Below are positions 399-28,898 of a stretch of 32,329 bases of DNA, piece after piece (within the stretch, counting starts at the first letter, position 1; every line of letters starts with the position of its first letter). Source of the DNA: Halorhabdus amylolytica (lineage in GTDB: Archaea; Halobacteriota; Halobacteria; Halobacteriales; Haloarculaceae); assembly GCF_004944975.1 (NCBI RefSeq), contig NZ_SPQG01000013.1, forward strand, positions 1-32,329, written 5' to 3'. The position numbers were made by a program, and so were the translations under genes. The notes under the pieces were generated by a model. That model was given only the letters and a program-made list of their open reading frames with translations, was not told the origin of the DNA and searched no databases.

Positions 399-3300
399 AT
401 GAAACGAAGAGAGTATCTCACAGGACTTACAGGAATCAGCACACTCTCGGTTGCGGCCAGGCAGGCGAGTGGTCGTACGAAAGCCCGTCGACTATCGAGT
501 GCAACCGAGGACGATACCCACCACCCCGGCCCACCGCGGTTCGGACGCGTCGGTGTGACGTTCTACGATCGGTGGGACACCGACTTCGACGAGGATCACG
601 CTGGCGGGAAGGACCGTGACAACTTCGCGCCGCGGATCGTCGGCGACGCGGAACGGGATCCCGACAACTACAGTGTCGAGGATTTCTCCTGGTCGCTCGT
701 CGAGACACCCGAGGACAGCACGGCAGCCCTGGAATATCGTCCGGACGACGACGGCCGGCCACAGTACGACCCCGGACAGGACAACGTCGTCGAGTTCGCA
801 CCGGACGTCCCTGGAACGTACGTCCTCGAACTGGACGCCCCCGACGGCATCCACGAGCAACTGCTGTACATCTTCCCCGAACACGGTGATGCGGGCAGTC
901 CGCCTCGTATCTCCATCGACGGCCACTACGACAACGAAACCGACGAGTTCGTCCTCGAATCGAATCCCAGGCTGGCCCCCAAAAGCAAGATGGCCGAGAG
1001 TGACCTAATCGTCGAATGGCTCGCGGACGGCCGTGACGCCCTCTCGACGGGAGATATCGTCGTCGGCGACGGGATAGATTCCTGGACGGCCAGAATCCCC
1101 AAGAGCGCACTCGGCGGCGAGACCGGACGCGTTCATGCGGCGCCGTGGGACACGAACGCCCACGGCTACACCGACACCGTCACGCTCGATCCCGCCAACG
1201 AGGTCGTCGAATATCCCAATCGACCGCCGGAGTGGATCGAGAACGGGATCATCTACCAGATCTTCCCGCGGTCGTTCGGCGGACCCCCGGAAGAAAGCGA
1301 GTGGCCGCTCCAGAACTCCAACGCCAACTTCGCCACCTTCGAGGAGAAGCTCGACTATATCGAGGAGTTGAACGTCGACGTAATCTGGTTCTGTCCGACG
1401 GTTCCCTCCGAAAGTGCGAACTGGAAGCCACAGAACGCGGACGAGTGGGATGGCCCGGACAACCGCTTGAAGTACGTCGGTGGCGGCCCGCACGGGTACG
1501 ACGCCCTCTCGTACTTCCAGACGGCCGAAGACCTGACGTCGGAGTACTCCGTCGAGGACTACAAGGATGAACCCTGGCCGTGGGAAACGGGGTACGATCC
1601 GGATGACAACCTCCGCGAGGCGGCCCGCGAGAGCGCGATGGCGGAGTTCCAGAGTTTCATGGATGCTGCCCACGAGCGGGACATCCGAGTCTGTATCGAC
1701 TTCGTGATCAACCACGGCGGTCGCCACCATCCCCTCTTCCAGGACACGATCGCCGAAAAGACCGATTCGCGTCCGGAAGGATGGACTTACAGAGGGATCG
1801 AAAAGAACAACACGGACTCGAAGTACTTCGACTGGTTCACTCGCACGGAGAGTGCGATCAAGAACGAGGGCGAAGTCATCGATGCAGCCCCATCAACGAG
1901 TGGCTTCGCTGGCCTCCGCGTGATGCCCCAGTGGAACTACGGCAACGTCGCGCTGCGCGAGCACATCCTCGCGGCAGCGGAACACTGGGCGGAAATGGGG
2001 GTCGACGCGTTCCGCTGTGATATCGCCTATGGAGTCCCACACAGCTTCTGGAAAGAGGTGCGGGAACGCGTTCGGGACATCGACCCCGAGTTCATGCTGC
2101 TCGACGAAACCATCCCGAACGATCCGAACTTCGCCGAGAACGAGTTCGATCTGCACTTCGACTCGGCTGACTTCATGACGAGTGCCGGCTACGGGGTCGT
2201 CAACGGTGCCGACCCGATGGAGCTGTACAACGCCGTCCACAGGCGCAAAAACGAGGGATGGCCCGACCATGCGCTGATTCTCAACGCCACTGAGAATCAC
2301 GACGAGTACCGTCTACTCGACGAGGCACTCAGCGGCTCCCGTGAGGATCCGGCCAAGGCCCAGCGTGCGGTCTGGTCGGCCGGCGTCACGCTCACCGGCG
2401 TCCCCTTCATCTATTACGGCCAGGAGCGGCTCCTCAGCAAATACGGCGAAGAACGCTACGACTACGACGACTCCGGCGAGGATTACCGGACCGACGACGG
2501 TGACGTCGGCCCGGGCAATCCCGCCCGCGCGTTCATGAACTGGGAGACGAACGACGAGGTCGAAGACCACCTCCAGTTCTATCAGGACGTAACCCAATTC
2601 TACAAGGAGACGGAGATTCTGAAGCCGTCGGCCGGTCTCCGGAAGACCTGGTTCCGGTCCGACGACAGCGTGCTGGTGTTCGGCCGGTCGATGGAGACAG
2701 ACGACGGCCGGAAGAACGTGGTCGTCATGCACCACTTCGACCCCGGCACGGCACAGGTCGATCTATTACCGGGCACCGAAACGACGGACCTGTTCACCGG
2801 CGAGGACATCGGCGTCGACTCCGGGGGGCCGGCAGTCAGCGTCGCGTTCGATACGCTGGCAGTCGTCGAGACCGACACCCTGTTCAGCGTCGGCGAGCAG
2901 ATCGTCCAGATCGACGACCCAACGGGTGACGACAACGGACCTGGGAGCTACACGTATCCGACCGGCGACGCCTACACGGACGGTGTGTTCGACGTCTCGG
3001 AACTGACGGTCCACACGACCACCAACGCCGTGCAGTTCCGGGTCACACTCGACGGGAATCTGTCGAACCCCGACGGATACGACGGTGGTATCACCGCCCA
3101 GCACCTGCAGGTCTACATCCGTGATCCCAACGCCGACGCGGGTACGACCGATGGTCGAACCGGAACGAACGTCATCTTCGAGAAGCCCTACCAGTATCGC
3201 CTGATCGCCGACGGCGAGAACGGTGCTCGCGTCGAGGATCACGAAGGGAACGTCGTGGCCGAGGGGTCGATCACGACCAACAAAGTCACCGACGGGATCG

Positions 3301-4274
3301 TCGTCGAGATACCCACGTCGGTACTCAGCGCGGGGATCCGGTCGTACTGCGTGGCGCCGCTCATGCTCGGATACCATCCCGACGCAGACGGCGGCGTGAT
3401 GCCGGTCCAGGCCGAGGCAAGCTCGGACGCCTTCGGTGGGGCCGACCCGGCTGAGGAGGTACCCGCCGTCATCGACATGGTCACGCCGGAGCCGGTCGAT
3501 CAGGCGGACGTTCTCTCCTATTCCGAAGTGGAGACGCCGACGCTCCCCTACACGTCGCTAACGCCGGAGTTCGAACCACTCGGGTTAGCTGAGGATGCGG
3601 ACGGGGACGACCACGGTCCAGGGAACTACCAGCACCCGACTGCAGACAGCTACGATGACAACCCCTGGGACATCACGAGCGTCGAAATCGCCGAGAGCCG
3701 CTCGCGGGTCGAGTTCACGTACAACTTCGCGACCGAGGTACAGAACCCCTGGCGTCTCGACGGCGGCTTCTCACACCAGCACATGCAGGTGTACATCCGT
3801 GATCCGGATGCCGGTGTAGACGCTCCGACCGCGACAGTCGCCCGCAAGGGAATTAACGCCGAGTTCGTGGAGCCATATCACTACCGTATCGCAGTGCACG
3901 GACAGGGACTCAAGCAGGTCGAGAACGGTGCCGGCGATGTCGTCTCGACCGACGTGAACGTCGCCGTCGAGGGGACAGCTATCTCCTTTGACGTCCCGAT
4001 GGAGGCCATCGATGGGTCACCGGAGGGCAAGCAGATCGCGTCGCTGGTCACGTCATTCGACGGCTACGGGACGGGTGGCGTCCGAACCGACTACGCGGAG
4101 AAACCGGACAGCCACGTCATCGGCACCGACGGCCAACCGGTCGACAACGCACCGCACGTCCTGGACATGATCCCGCCCACAGGGACCGATCAGTCGGAGG
4201 CGCTCGCGTACTCGAAAGACGAGATGGCCGAGATCCCCCTCGCTGACTGGGGACGGTACAATCCGACCGGCTAG
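399..4274 (+). CDS. Tat-exported GH13 alpha-amylase family enzyme with two C-terminal glucodextranase-C-like modules
   Basis: Predicted extracellular glycoside hydrolase acting on starch-like alpha-glucans. The N-terminus (MKRREYLTGLTG) is a Tat-type signal without a lipobox cysteine, so a freely secreted enzyme is likely. Residues about 45-275 form beta-rich N-terminal domains. The GH13 barrel begins near residue 280 (ENGIIYQIFPRSF). All four GH13 motifs are visible: D434-N438-H439 (region I), R539 and nucleophile D541 (region II), acid/base E570 (region III) and H634-D635 (region IV), so activity is expected. After a short beta domain come two related modules, about 850-1060 and 1080-1285. 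Each contains GDDxGPGxYxxPT and HxQVYIRDP-type motifs typical of the glucodextranase C-terminal domain, possibly for cell-surface or glycan binding. At 1291 residues it is about twice the size of a simple amylase. The precise specificity (amylase, pullulanase or cyclodextrinase) cannot be told from sequence alone. Confidence 0.93.
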   Translation: MKRREYLTGLTGISTLSVAARQASGRTKARRLSSATEDDTHHPGPPRFGRVGVTFYDRWDTDFDEDHAGGKDRDNFAPRIVGDAERDPDNYSVEDFSWSLVETPEDSTAALEYRPDDDGRPQYDPGQDNVVEFAPDVPGTYVLELDAPDGIHEQLLYIFPEHGDAGSPPRISIDGHYDNETDEFVLESNPRLAPKSKMAESDLIVEWLADGRDALSTGDIVVGDGIDSWTARIPKSALGGETGRVHAAPWDTNAHGYTDTVTLDPANEVVEYPNRPPEWIENGIIYQIFPRSFGGPPEESEWPLQNSNANFATFEEKLDYIEELNVDVIWFCPTVPSESANWKPQNADEWDGPDNRLKYVGGGPHGYDALSYFQTAEDLTSEYSVEDYKDEPWPWETGYDPDDNLREAARESAMAEFQSFMDAAHERDIRVCIDFVINHGGRHHPLFQDTIAEKTDSRPEGWTYRGIEKNNTDSKYFDWFTRTESAIKNEGEVIDAAPSTSGFAGLRVMPQWNYGNVALREHILAAAEHWAEMGVDAFRCDIAYGVPHSFWKEVRERVRDIDPEFMLLDETIPNDPNFAENEFDLHFDSADFMTSAGYGVVNGADPMELYNAVHRRKNEGWPDHALILNATENHDEYRLLDEALSGSREDPAKAQRAVWSAGVTLTGVPFIYYGQERLLSKYGEERYDYDDSGEDYRTDDGDVGPGNPARAFMNWETNDEVEDHLQFYQDVTQFYKETEILKPSAGLRKTWFRSDDSVLVFGRSMETDDGRKNVVVMHHFDPGTAQVDLLPGTETTDLFTGEDIGVDSGGPAVSVAFDTLAVVETDTLFSVGEQIVQIDDPTGDDNGPGSYTYPTGDAYTDGVFDVSELTVHTTTNAVQFRVTLDGNLSNPDGYDGGITAQHLQVYIRDPNADAGTTDGRTGTNVIFEKPYQYRLIADGENGARVEDHEGNVVAEGSITTNKVTDGIVVEIPTSVLSAGIRSYCVAPLMLGYHPDADGGVMPVQAEASSDAFGGADPAEEVPAVIDMVTPEPVDQADVLSYSEVETPTLPYTSLTPEFEPLGLAEDADGDDHGPGNYQHPTADSYDDNPWDITSVEIAESRSRVEFTYNFATEVQNPWRLDGGFSHQHMQVYIRDPDAGVDAPTATVARKGINAEFVEPYHYRIAVHGQGLKQVENGAGDVVSTDVNVAVEGTAISFDVPMEAIDGSPEGKQIASLVTSFDGYGTGGVRTDYAEKPDSHVIGTDGQPVDNAPHVLDMIPPTGTDQSEALAYSKDEMAEIPLADWGRYNPTG

Positions 4275-4354
4275 ATCCGAACTGCAAGTATCCATCAACA
4301 ATTTATAACTTTCCAGTGACCCCGGACAAGTCGCTGGCTCGCCGGAATACCGGG

Positions 4355-4361
4355 TTTTACA
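4355..4361 (+). promoter_or_regulatory. TATA box of the small membrane protein gene
   Basis: TTTTACA lies about 26-32 bases before the ATG at 4387. This fits archaeal transcription starting at or very near the start codon (leaderless mRNA). Confidence 0.45.
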
Positions 4362-4386
4362 ATACAGGGCACTCGTTCACTCGCTC

Positions 4387-4602
4387 ATGACCGACGAGAA
4401 CCCCCTCCGTGATCGTCGCGTGCGTGGACTGATCGGCCTCTCGGGCGCCGTCGTCGTGGCGTTCGTCGCGATTTTCTTCCTCGAAGGAACGATCCGCTGG
4501 GTCGTCCTGGGCGTCGCACTGCTGGACGCGATCGTGACGCCGTACATCCTCGGTAAAGCCGTCGAAAACGCCGAGAACGAACCCGACGGGTTCTCGGCCT
4601 GA
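4387..4602 (+). CDS. Small two-helix membrane protein, unknown function
   Basis: 71 residues. After a charged N-terminus (MTDENPLRDRRVRG) there are two hydrophobic stretches, about residues 14-33 and 35-55. The second is followed by a polar, acidic tail. I do not recognise a named family, though short two-helix proteins of this layout are common in haloarchaea. It has its own TATA-like box close upstream and sits alone between the amylase and a convergent DUF302 gene. The start is the first ATG and gives a leaderless transcript. Confidence 0.7.
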   Translation: MTDENPLRDRRVRGLIGLSGAVVVAFVAIFFLEGTIRWVVLGVALLDAIVTPYILGKAVENAENEPDGFSA

Positions 4603-4648
4603 TCCATACGGGTCGGTCACAGACGGCGAGGGCCGACCGAGAGAAGCC

Positions 4649-5089
4649 CTACAGGTTCGAGTAGGCTTCCTCGACGTACTCGCCGGTGTCGGCGATGATC
4701 TCGGCCATGGTCTCGTCGTCGGGAGCCATCCCGACAAGCCGGGCGATCCGCATGATCGAGACGTGATAGACCTCCTGGCGGCCCGGTTCGACCTCGCGGA
4801 TCACGACGTTGCAGGGGAACAGCCCGCCGAGCCGGCCGTCAGTGGCGTCGAGCGCCCGGTCGGCGACGGCCGGGTTGCACGCCCCCAGGACGTAATAGGG
4901 GTCGCGGTCGGCGTCGATCTTCTCGTTGAGCAACTCCGACGGGGAGAACTCGGTCGCGATACCGAAACCGGCGTCGACGAACGTCTCGCGGACGTGTTCG
5001 ACAGCCGCCTCGTGATCCATGTCGAGGGTCGCGCGCTTTTCGCCGATGTCTTCGGCGTCGAGTTCGGTCGGATCGATCGGGAGCGTCAT
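4649..5089 (-). CDS. DUF302 family protein (first of two paralogues)
   Basis: 146 residues. The frame stays open upstream, but the ATG at 5089 (MTLPIDPTEL) is the best start because the translation before it is Arg-rich and unlike a haloarchaeal protein. The body matches the DUF302 fold: an amphipathic helix (DHEAAVEHVRETFVDAGFG), the signature YYVLGACNPAVADRAL near residues 66-80, and GGLFPCNVVIRE near 88-99. Cysteines C71 and C93 sit in the two signature motifs. The biochemical role of DUF302 is not established. A second DUF302 protein lies about 330 bases away on the opposite strand and keeps both cysteines. It could bind a small ligand or a metal, but that is inference. Confidence 0.85.
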   Translation of the reverse strand: MTLPIDPTELDAEDIGEKRATLDMDHEAAVEHVRETFVDAGFGIATEFSPSELLNEKIDADRDPYYVLGACNPAVADRALDATDGRLGGLFPCNVVIREVEPGRQEVYHVSIMRIARLVGMAPDDETMAEIIADTGEYVEEAYSNL

Positions 5090-25210: not shown

Positions 25211-25217
25211 CGGTTCA

Positions 25218-25349
25218 TCAAAGGGCCGTGTTTGGATTTCCGAGCACCATCGTCTTGTGCATCTCCGGAATCAGTGTTTTGGGTAGATGGGCTTCAATGT
25301 CATTGTTACTGCCGGCTGTAACAAACTGATACGGACAGTTGTCATTCTT
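25218..25349 (-). pseudogene. Possible remnant reading frame in the htpX-PH gap
   Basis: The minus strand is open for 43 codons and ends in two stops. It includes NCPYQFVTAGSNNDIEAHLP and later LIPEMHKTMVLGNPN, which reads like protein rather than random translation. There is no start codon and a stop lies immediately upstream, so it would be only the tail of a lost gene. It overlaps the left 17-nt direct repeat. I cannot name a family. Confidence 0.2.
25326..25342. repeat. Left copy of a 17-nt direct repeat
   Basis: CTGATACGGACAGTTGT. It matches 26291-26307 at 16 of 17 positions in the same orientation. The two copies enclose the PH-domain and YccF genes. Confidence 0.7.
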
Positions 25350-25413
25350 TTACACCGTGCCGTACCAGATAGTATCGCTTCTTTTATATTATTTTATTTC
25401 AAAATCCGCGGTG

Positions 25414-25896
25414 ATGTCTGTAGAGACAAATAGAACAACAGATGTCAAACATCATGCGCAGACAGACGGTGTAAAGCTGATGGAAGGGGAGTCCGTGCTT
25501 GAGAATAGACGACCGAGCTGGACGGTTTGGTGGAAACAAATTGCGCTCGCCGTCGTCGTATTTTTTGGCGGCCTCGTCGGCGAAGCCCCCTTGGCTGGTA
25601 TAGTCGGTACGGGACTCATCGCTGGGTACGTCGTCGTGTCACGGATGCAATCCCGATACATCGTGACGGACGAGCGTATCAAAGGAAAAATAGGTGTACT
25701 CTCGAAGACGGAAATGGAATATCGCATCGCGGATCTCCGGAGTATTGGGGCAACACAGTCGATCTTCGAGAGACTGGTCGGTCACGGCACGATCGAATTC
25801 CAGGCCGGTGCGAACAATAGACTTGTCTGGCACGGTGTTCCGGCGTATGAAGAAGTGAAGAACACAGTTCGTGAACAACAACGGGAGTACGAGTAA
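25414..25896 (+). CDS. PH-domain membrane protein (bPH2-like)
   Basis: 160 residues from the ATG at 25414 (MSVETNRTTDVKHHAQ). A polar head is followed by GESVLENRRPSWTVWWKQ, one or two hydrophobic segments (about 45-78), and the bacterial-type PH domain: SRYIVTDERIKGKIGVLSKT, then RIADLRSIGATQSIFERLVG, GTIEFQAGANN and a closing helix (YEEVKNTVREQQREY). Such proteins sit on the membrane and probably bind other proteins. Codon use is more AT-rich than the neighbours (many AAT, ACA, ATA), which suggests a different history. A TATATT patch lies about 25-30 bases upstream. yccF begins 2 bases after its stop. Confidence 0.85.
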   Translation: MSVETNRTTDVKHHAQTDGVKLMEGESVLENRRPSWTVWWKQIALAVVVFFGGLVGEAPLAGIVGTGLIAGYVVVSRMQSRYIVTDERIKGKIGVLSKTEMEYRIADLRSIGATQSIFERLVGHGTIEFQAGANNRLVWHGVPAYEEVKNTVREQQREYE

Positions 25897-25898
25897 CA

Positions 25899-26294
25899 AT
25901 GTCCGATAGTCCGTCGTTGATCGTTCGAGGTGTATGGTTTATGTTTGTCGGCTGGTGGCTGACTGGGATTGTCCTTGGAATGGCATGGCTGCTTAATCTG
26001 ACAGTCGTCGGTTTGCCTATCGGAATCAAGCTAATAAACAAGGCACCCTATACGCTGACATTGAAATCACTCGAGTCCGAAGAATCAGTCGAGACTGTAG
26101 AAATGGGCGGATCCAGTGGTGGCAGTTCGCCGGGTCTTCTCGTCCGGGGTGTGTACTTCGTTCTGATCGGCTGGTGGGCCAGCGGCCTCCTGACGTTGGC
26201 CGCCTACCTCATTAGCCTCACTGTCATTGGGCTACCGATCGGTGTGAAACTGTTTAATTACTTACCGTACGTCGTTTCGCTCAAGAAATACTGA
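25899..26294 (+). CDS. YccF-domain membrane protein
   Basis: 131 residues. There are two repeats of the YccF domain: residues about 8-50 (RGVWFMFVGWWLTG, then NLTVVGLPIGIKLINKAPY) and about 79-125 (RGVYFVLIGWWASG, then SLTVIGLPIGVKLFNYLPY). Each contributes two hydrophobic segments, so four membrane helices are likely. The linker is polar and Gly/Ser-rich. YccF-type proteins have no firmly established function. It is translated from the same mRNA as the PH-domain gene. The right copy of the 17-nt repeat overlaps its stop codon. Confidence 0.88.
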   Translation: MSDSPSLIVRGVWFMFVGWWLTGIVLGMAWLLNLTVVGLPIGIKLINKAPYTLTLKSLESEESVETVEMGGSSGGSSPGLLVRGVYFVLIGWWASGLLTLAAYLISLTVIGLPIGVKLFNYLPYVVSLKKY

Positions 26295-26307
26295 TACGGA
26301 CGGTTGT
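26291..26307. repeat. Right copy of the 17-nt direct repeat
   Basis: CTGATACGGACGGTTGT, one base different from the left copy at 25326-25342. It begins one base before the TGA stop of the YccF gene. Confidence 0.7.
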
Positions 26308-26317
26308 AACCATTTGA

Positions 26318-27987: not shown

Positions 27988-28005
27988 TGTCACCCCAACG
28001 TGACA
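27988..28005. promoter_or_regulatory. Inverted repeat abutting the second htpX start
   Basis: TGTCAC-CCCAAC-GTGACA, with 6-bp perfect arms and a 6-base spacer, ends two bases before the ATG at 28008. It could be an operator over the transcription start or a small leader hairpin. Confidence 0.35.
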
Positions 28006-28007
28006 TC

Positions 28008-28898
28008 ATGGAATGGAAAAGTGACCGCCGGCTTGCCCGTCGGATGGTCCTCGCGCTCGTCCTCTCGATTGGGGGCTACAGCGCGCTTTTTGGCCTGATT
28101 GTGCTGCTGTCGCCATGGAAAGTCGCCGTGGCCGTCTTCGCCGTCGTCGTGGTCGTTCTCGCAATCCTGGTCCGGGAAGCGGATCGACTGACGTACTACA
28201 TGACGAAAGCGGTCGCTATCGACCGCGAGGACTACCCTGCGTTGTTCGACACCGTCGACCGCCTGGCCCGACAGGCGGATATGCCGCGACCGCCGGTTGC
28301 CGTGATCCCCAGCGACGAGCCGAACGCCCTCTCGGCCGGGACGGGCGATCGGACAGTCGTCTGTGTCACGCTCGGACTCCTGAAGACGCTCGACGACGAC
28401 GAACTCGACGCGGTGCTGGCCCACGAGTTGGCCCACTGCAAGAATGGCGATTCGACGGTACTGACAGTGGCGGGCTTCCCGACGACGGTCGCGCTGCTCA
28501 CGCTGTCGGGCAGCCTCGAACGGATGAACGGGTTCGCGCTCTTTCTGGGGTATATCGGGCTCGTGATCGTCCTCGCGATCGTCTCGCTGGCGTTGCTGGT
28601 AGTGAGTCTCCCCGGAACGCTGGTACTGGCGCGCTACCGGGAGTATGCGGCCGATCGTGGAGCAGTCGCAATCACGGGCAAACCCGTCGCGCTCGCGGAG
28701 GCGCTGGCGACCCTGCACGGTCGTGACCGGCGGCCCGAGAGCGATCTCCGGTCGATCGCGGGCCTGAACGCCTTCTGTATCGTGCCGAGCGGGACCGGGT
28801 TGTTGACGCTTCCCTGGACGCATCCACCCGTCGCGAAGCGGATCAAGCGGCTGCGAAAGGTACAGGAAACGTTCGAAGCGGGATCGAAGCGGGATTGA
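28008..28898 (+). CDS. htpX: HtpX-like M48 membrane zinc metalloprotease (second copy)
   Basis: 296 residues from the ATG at 28008 (MEWKSDRRLARRMVLAL). Hydrophobic helices are at about 14-34, 38-55, 150-168 and 178-200. The zinc motif is H139-E140-L-A-H143 (VLAHELAHCKN), with the later ligand in LARYREYAADRGA. The C-terminus THPPVAKRIKRLRKVQ matches the family. It is clearly paralogous to the protein at 24332-25210 (shared LDxDELxxVLAHELAH and YREYAADRG), but the membrane helices differ. pspAB follows after 47 bases in the same direction, an arrangement I know from other haloarchaea, so this copy is the likely envelope-stress protease. Confidence 0.94.
   Translation: MEWKSDRRLARRMVLALVLSIGGYSALFGLIVLLSPWKVAVAVFAVVVVVLAILVREADRLTYYMTKAVAIDREDYPALFDTVDRLARQADMPRPPVAVIPSDEPNALSAGTGDRTVVCVTLGLLKTLDDDELDAVLAHELAHCKNGDSTVLTVAGFPTTVALLTLSGSLERMNGFALFLGYIGLVIVLAIVSLALLVVSLPGTLVLARYREYAADRGAVAITGKPVALAEALATLHGRDRRPESDLRSIAGLNAFCIVPSGTGLLTLPWTHPPVAKRIKRLRKVQETFEAGSKRD

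Follow-up and report, generated by a model that had tools for sequence, protein, structure and literature searches.

In the analyzed window, a stretch of 32,329 nucleotides of Halorhabdus amylolytica DNA (contig NZ_SPQG01000013.1, positions 1 to 32,329), two membrane protein genes lie on the plus strand between htpX and lrp: a PH-domain (bPH_2) gene at 25414..25896 (Pfam PF03703, E 9.6e-9) and a YccF-like gene with two YccF repeats at 25899..26294 (Pfam PF03733, E 1.1e-9). The start of the PH gene is most likely the ATG at 25414, as its homologues support. As a preliminary description of this DNA had supposed, the two genes are richer in A/T-ending codons than their neighbours, with GC3 values of 0.56 (PH) and 0.61 (YccF) versus 0.86 for htpX, 0.78 for lrp, 0.83 for EamA and about 0.75–0.85 for most other genes of the window. 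Downstream of EamA, at 28005-28898, is another M48 (HtpX-like) protease gene, which shares about 41% identity with the first.

The 17-mer CTGATACGGAC[A/G]GTTGT occurs on the same strand at 25326-25342 and 26291-26307, and the two copies differ solely at the A/G position. No third match was found in the window even with three mismatches allowed, and none of 100 shuffles of the window (mean, 0.19 matches) reached two, which places the pair far beyond chance. Coordinates, strand and shuffles thus agree with the earlier report of a 17-mer repeated in the same orientation around the AT-richer gene pair. Its statement that the copies lie just before and exactly at the end of the two-gene unit was right as to position and can be made more exact: the TGA of the right copy (26292-26294) is the YccF stop codon itself, and the ATG of the PH gene lies about 70 bp past the left copy.

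An htpX orthologue was present in most of the seven genomes of the genus. In two of these, G002 and G003, the end of htpX is followed by the end of lrp within about 40–45 bases, and neither the gene pair nor the 17-mer is present (the G002 alignment covers htpX over its last 37 codons alone). The closest relative, G001, contains a different stretch of approximately 2.1 kb with an lrp-like remnant, which marks the htpX–lrp interval as an insertion hotspot, and G004, G005 and G006 have other sequence after htpX. The G001 stretch is located at 2851-4975 of locus L112 (G001:C1:1896000-1906000), and the fragment it contains resembles the lrp end. Because the interval is empty in two congeners and differently filled in a third, and htpX is followed by other sequence in three more, it is, as judged by alignment, a variable one, and the gene pair of the window is an insertion into it, as the preliminary description had proposed. 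Alignment with the empty sites and with G001 placed the inserted stretch at 25217..26317, with approximate breakpoints. The window diverges from its relatives a few bases past the htpX stop codon. This point lies some 110 bp upstream of the left 17-mer, so the insert is not delimited by the repeats. On the minus strand, 25221-25325 holds a protein-like open stretch of 35 codons (FVTAGSNNDIEAHLPKTLIPEMHKTMVLGNPNTAL); no relative of such a relict gene was found in any fetched locus.

A profile search revealed close PH homologues in only 5 of 142 genomes of the family (E <= 7e-83; the next match, at 3e-31, lies beyond a sharp gap), and all five are located directly upstream of a YccF homologue. 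YccF homologues alone were far commoner (68 of 146). The neighbours of the pair differ among genomes and the loci are unrelated; in G005, for example, it is accompanied by ilvD and a MATE transporter gene, and is still more AT-rich (GC3, 0.41/0.47). This narrow occurrence at unrelated loci, together with the AT-richness shared by G005, indicates that the pair was probably acquired horizontally. None of the four other pairs, including that of G005, has flanking direct repeats, and no donor carrying the whole block was found. Both proteins resemble the bPH_2 and YccF membrane protein families in domain matches above the Pfam cut-offs, and differ in forming a fixed two-gene unit confined to five genomes of the family. 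The PH protein also has a match in phrog_3707, a viral "membrane-flanked domain" family; PADLOC returned no defence-gene match, and any role in the cell envelope is conjecture. The membrane-stress partnership that the preliminary description thought possible would, as a link to htpX, be hypothetical, and the other pairs occupy unrelated loci. The pair itself represents an ordinary accessory acquisition.

Each 17-mer of the window consists of C, TGA and the terminal inverted repeat of a short element (family 1), of which only the left end is present and the right half is missing. The genome of the window contains at least a dozen elements of the form TGA-TACGGACTGCTGTAA ... TTACAGCAGTCCGTA-TGA, 86-87 bp long and almost fully palindromic, and complete copies with complementary arms, of 84-87 or about 114 bp, occur in this genome and in relatives. 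Nearly all copies read had a matching right arm within 84-115 bp, and the left and right arm variants mostly agreed; the two window copies are the exceptions, being truncated and without a matching right arm. The right copy, which retains a few further element bases (26291..26314, plus strand), is broken off just before the lrp stop and matches a complete G005 element at 90% over 29 nt. The two 17-mers are best explained as decayed left ends of palindromic, MITE-like family-1 elements.

Genome comparison revealed that the exact 17-mer is the same element end in another arm variant, with 32 copies in G065, 26 in G066, 6 in G068 and 4 in G005, whereas the reversed 17-mer used as a control gave none. 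Its distribution across the class is sparse (8 of 391 genomes), and its only exact copies in the genome of the window are the two described here. In that genome the GTTGT-type arm is exclusive to the htpX–lrp site, so the window copies probably share their history with the inserted block and not with the resident elements. The alternative raised in the preliminary description, a dispersed intergenic repeat of haloarchaea, was borne out, since the motif forms the arm of MITE-like palindromic elements, and a single genome can contain as many as 32 exact copies of the 17-mer. The same description had named hundreds of copies unrelated to gene cassettes as evidence against a cassette, and the outcome goes largely that way, with about 75 exact copies in the family, those read being almost all single complete elements. 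Diverged relatives of the element were located on plasmids of Haloarcula, Halomicrobium, Natrinema, Halococcus and others, and no Rfam match was obtained in the window. Five nearly identical 114-bp family-1 elements in G005 (L090, G005:C2), whose interior is not palindromic, unlike that of the 86-bp form, suggest recent mobility. A search of viral sequences yielded 31 contigs with matches to the arms; a partner arm was absent from every one of them, all were unrelated, and they were regarded as chance matches.

TGA was present on both sides of the element in 54 of 60 distinct copies. In G005, a long gene has an element exactly at its stop codon (...GACGAC TGA-element-TGA), and the same gene in five congeners ends in GACGACTGA or GACGATTGA, with one TGA and no element; by this direct comparison with empty sites, TGA is the duplicated or target triplet. 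The same TGA rule was seen in a second family (TGATACTGCCGGCTGTAA...TTACAGCCGGCAGTATGA, 84 bp; family 2). Its left arm and the start of its interior are located at 25303..25328 on the plus strand of the window (consensus TGATACTGCCGGCTGTAACAAACTGA), matching at 20 of 21 positions the sequence GATACTGCCGGCTGTAACAAA, which is dispersed in 39 copies in G007, 22 in G096 and 11 in G005. This family-2 element is broken off where family 1 inserted: the left window copy (25326..25342, plus strand) is nested in an internal TGA, its family-1 end beginning exactly at the CTGA inside the family-2 element. G041 (L119) shows this nesting too, there with a complete family-1 element flanked by TGA on either side. 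Elsewhere in the genome of the window, two family-1-type ends stand back to back within 90 bp (L008, about 1412 and 1501), another sign of elements inserting beside one another.

Simple gene calls around 52 copies sorted them into 28 whose start coincides with the stop of a predicted gene, 21 in intergenic sequence and 3 inside a call. After orthologous duplicates were removed, 25 of the 43 copies outside coding sequence were on a stop TGA and 18 were intergenic, compared with 54 stop and 848 intergenic among 902 background TGAs (Fisher p 5e-18; p 5e-12 versus a CTGA-only background). Independent support came from the PLSDB annotation, in which a CDS ends on the flanking triplet of the element in 6 of 10 plasmid copies, including those at the M48 protease gene of Haloarcula hispanica pHH400 and tpiA of Natrinema thermotolerans. 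As a caveat, the intact TGCTG-type copies in the genome of the window are mostly located away from stop codons. Such placement could also arise if elements were kept at gene ends by selection for an RNA hairpin acting in 3' end formation or mRNA stability, without any insertion preference. The position directly after coding sequence fits this explanation, as do the strong hairpins predicted by folding (z -11 and -10), although folding does not distinguish a function in RNA from terminal repeats that a transposase requires. However, the exact TGA register with TGA on both sides points to a target rule, as do copies in the internal TGA of another element and copies away from genes; we consider selection for a hairpin unlikely as the sole cause, while selection and insertion preference are inseparable in the stop-codon placement itself.

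The elements were compared with small mobile repeats of Haloquadratum walsbyi, SMR-A and SMR-B, which are described without target duplication and of which SMR-A targets PATE/IS605 palindromes (PMC3119063). They share with these a haloarchaeal host, a size of about 80-110 bp and conspicuous terminal inverted repeats, as well as the absence of coding capacity and a frequent location in other mobile elements (PMC3119063), but differ in duplicating TGA and favouring stop codons, a distinction drawn from the SMR descriptions. As in MITEs (PMC10969869), they are short, non-coding and multicopy, lack a transposase gene, carry terminal inverted repeats and are dispersed among genomes with an apparent short target duplication, namely the paired TGAs and the single TGA of the five congeners versus two in G005. 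They differ from MITEs in their nearly fixed lengths, in the almost complete palindromes of the 84-87 bp forms and in their placement on stop codons, which the MITE review nowhere mentions (PMC10969869). No parent transposon with these ends, as a long-spaced pair of the same arms, was found in the genus or in four plasmids, nor was an autonomous transposase with these arms. The elements work like MITEs and resemble the Haloquadratum repeats in size and nesting. IS1031-like insertion sequences of the IS5 family generate a 3-bp target duplication at TNA. The 3-bp TNA-type target is the likeness to the present elements; no transposase of this sort was linked to their ends, and the resemblance is a lead only.

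The direct orientation of the two 17-mers might instead reflect a mobile cassette or circle carrying PH and YccF that integrated by a single crossover at the 17-bp arm of an element already present between htpX and lrp. Such an event would account for both copies keeping the same left 17 bp and for the GTTGT variant occurring at just these two places in the genome. We regard it as rather improbable, because the empty sites of G002 and G003, where the preliminary description had suggested looking for one copy of the repeat, hold none, the unit lacks an integrase, the homologous pairs of four other genomes are not flanked by direct repeats, and the insert begins well to the left of the left repeat. 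Of the features of site-specific recombination cassettes (a core copy at the empty site, a recombinase and recurring repeats), none was found here. That the 17-mers arose as a target-site duplication when the PH/YccF pair inserted, as also put forward earlier from near-identical repeats flanking the unit in the same orientation, is highly improbable, since the motif is the end of a dispersed element, is absent from the empty sites, and has inserted sequence on its left side as well. A recombination scar, which the preliminary description had named beside it, is conceivable.

We therefore favor, as quite probable, an acquired gene pair in a variable htpX–lrp site, with 17-mers that are decayed left ends of TGA-inserting palindromic elements whose right halves were lost. 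The element structure, TGA flanks, stop-codon enrichment, orthologous empty stop codon, nesting and insertion relative to congeners demonstrated above would fit together as follows. The PH/YccF block would have arrived in the htpX–lrp intergenic site by horizontal transfer, possibly with GTTGT-type arms from a relative like G005, whose elements have that arm type. Elements would have inserted independently at TGAs within or beside the arrived block, at the YccF stop codon on the right and at the TGA inside the family-2 element on the left, with a transposase presumably acting in trans to duplicate the 3-bp TGA; deletion may later have removed the right half of each element. The direct orientation of the copies would then follow from the TGA rule and not from integration of a cassette, and that of the right copy is expected, because a stop-codon copy always has its TGA on the coding strand. 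Truncation of both window copies is an unexplained coincidence in this history and counts against it. No strain with the pair and complete elements at htpX–lrp, or with the elements and no pair, was found, so the order of events given here is conjectural.

In the open-access literature, the scope of our search, we found no description of a stop-codon preference and nothing relevant on the motif itself. Element arms of this kind can be mistaken for cassette boundaries, as they were in the preliminary description, and the part worth following is the targeting of stop codons. We put at about even the chance that haloarchaea hold families of palindromic mobile elements that target the TGA stop codon, where the 3-bp duplication restores the stop, so that the gene tolerates the insertion and gains a hairpin 3' end. 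If this is true, the use of the stop codon as a landing site that is remade by duplication would constitute a safe-harbour strategy in gene-dense genomes, and many haloarchaeal genes would have their 3' untranslated regions altered by it.
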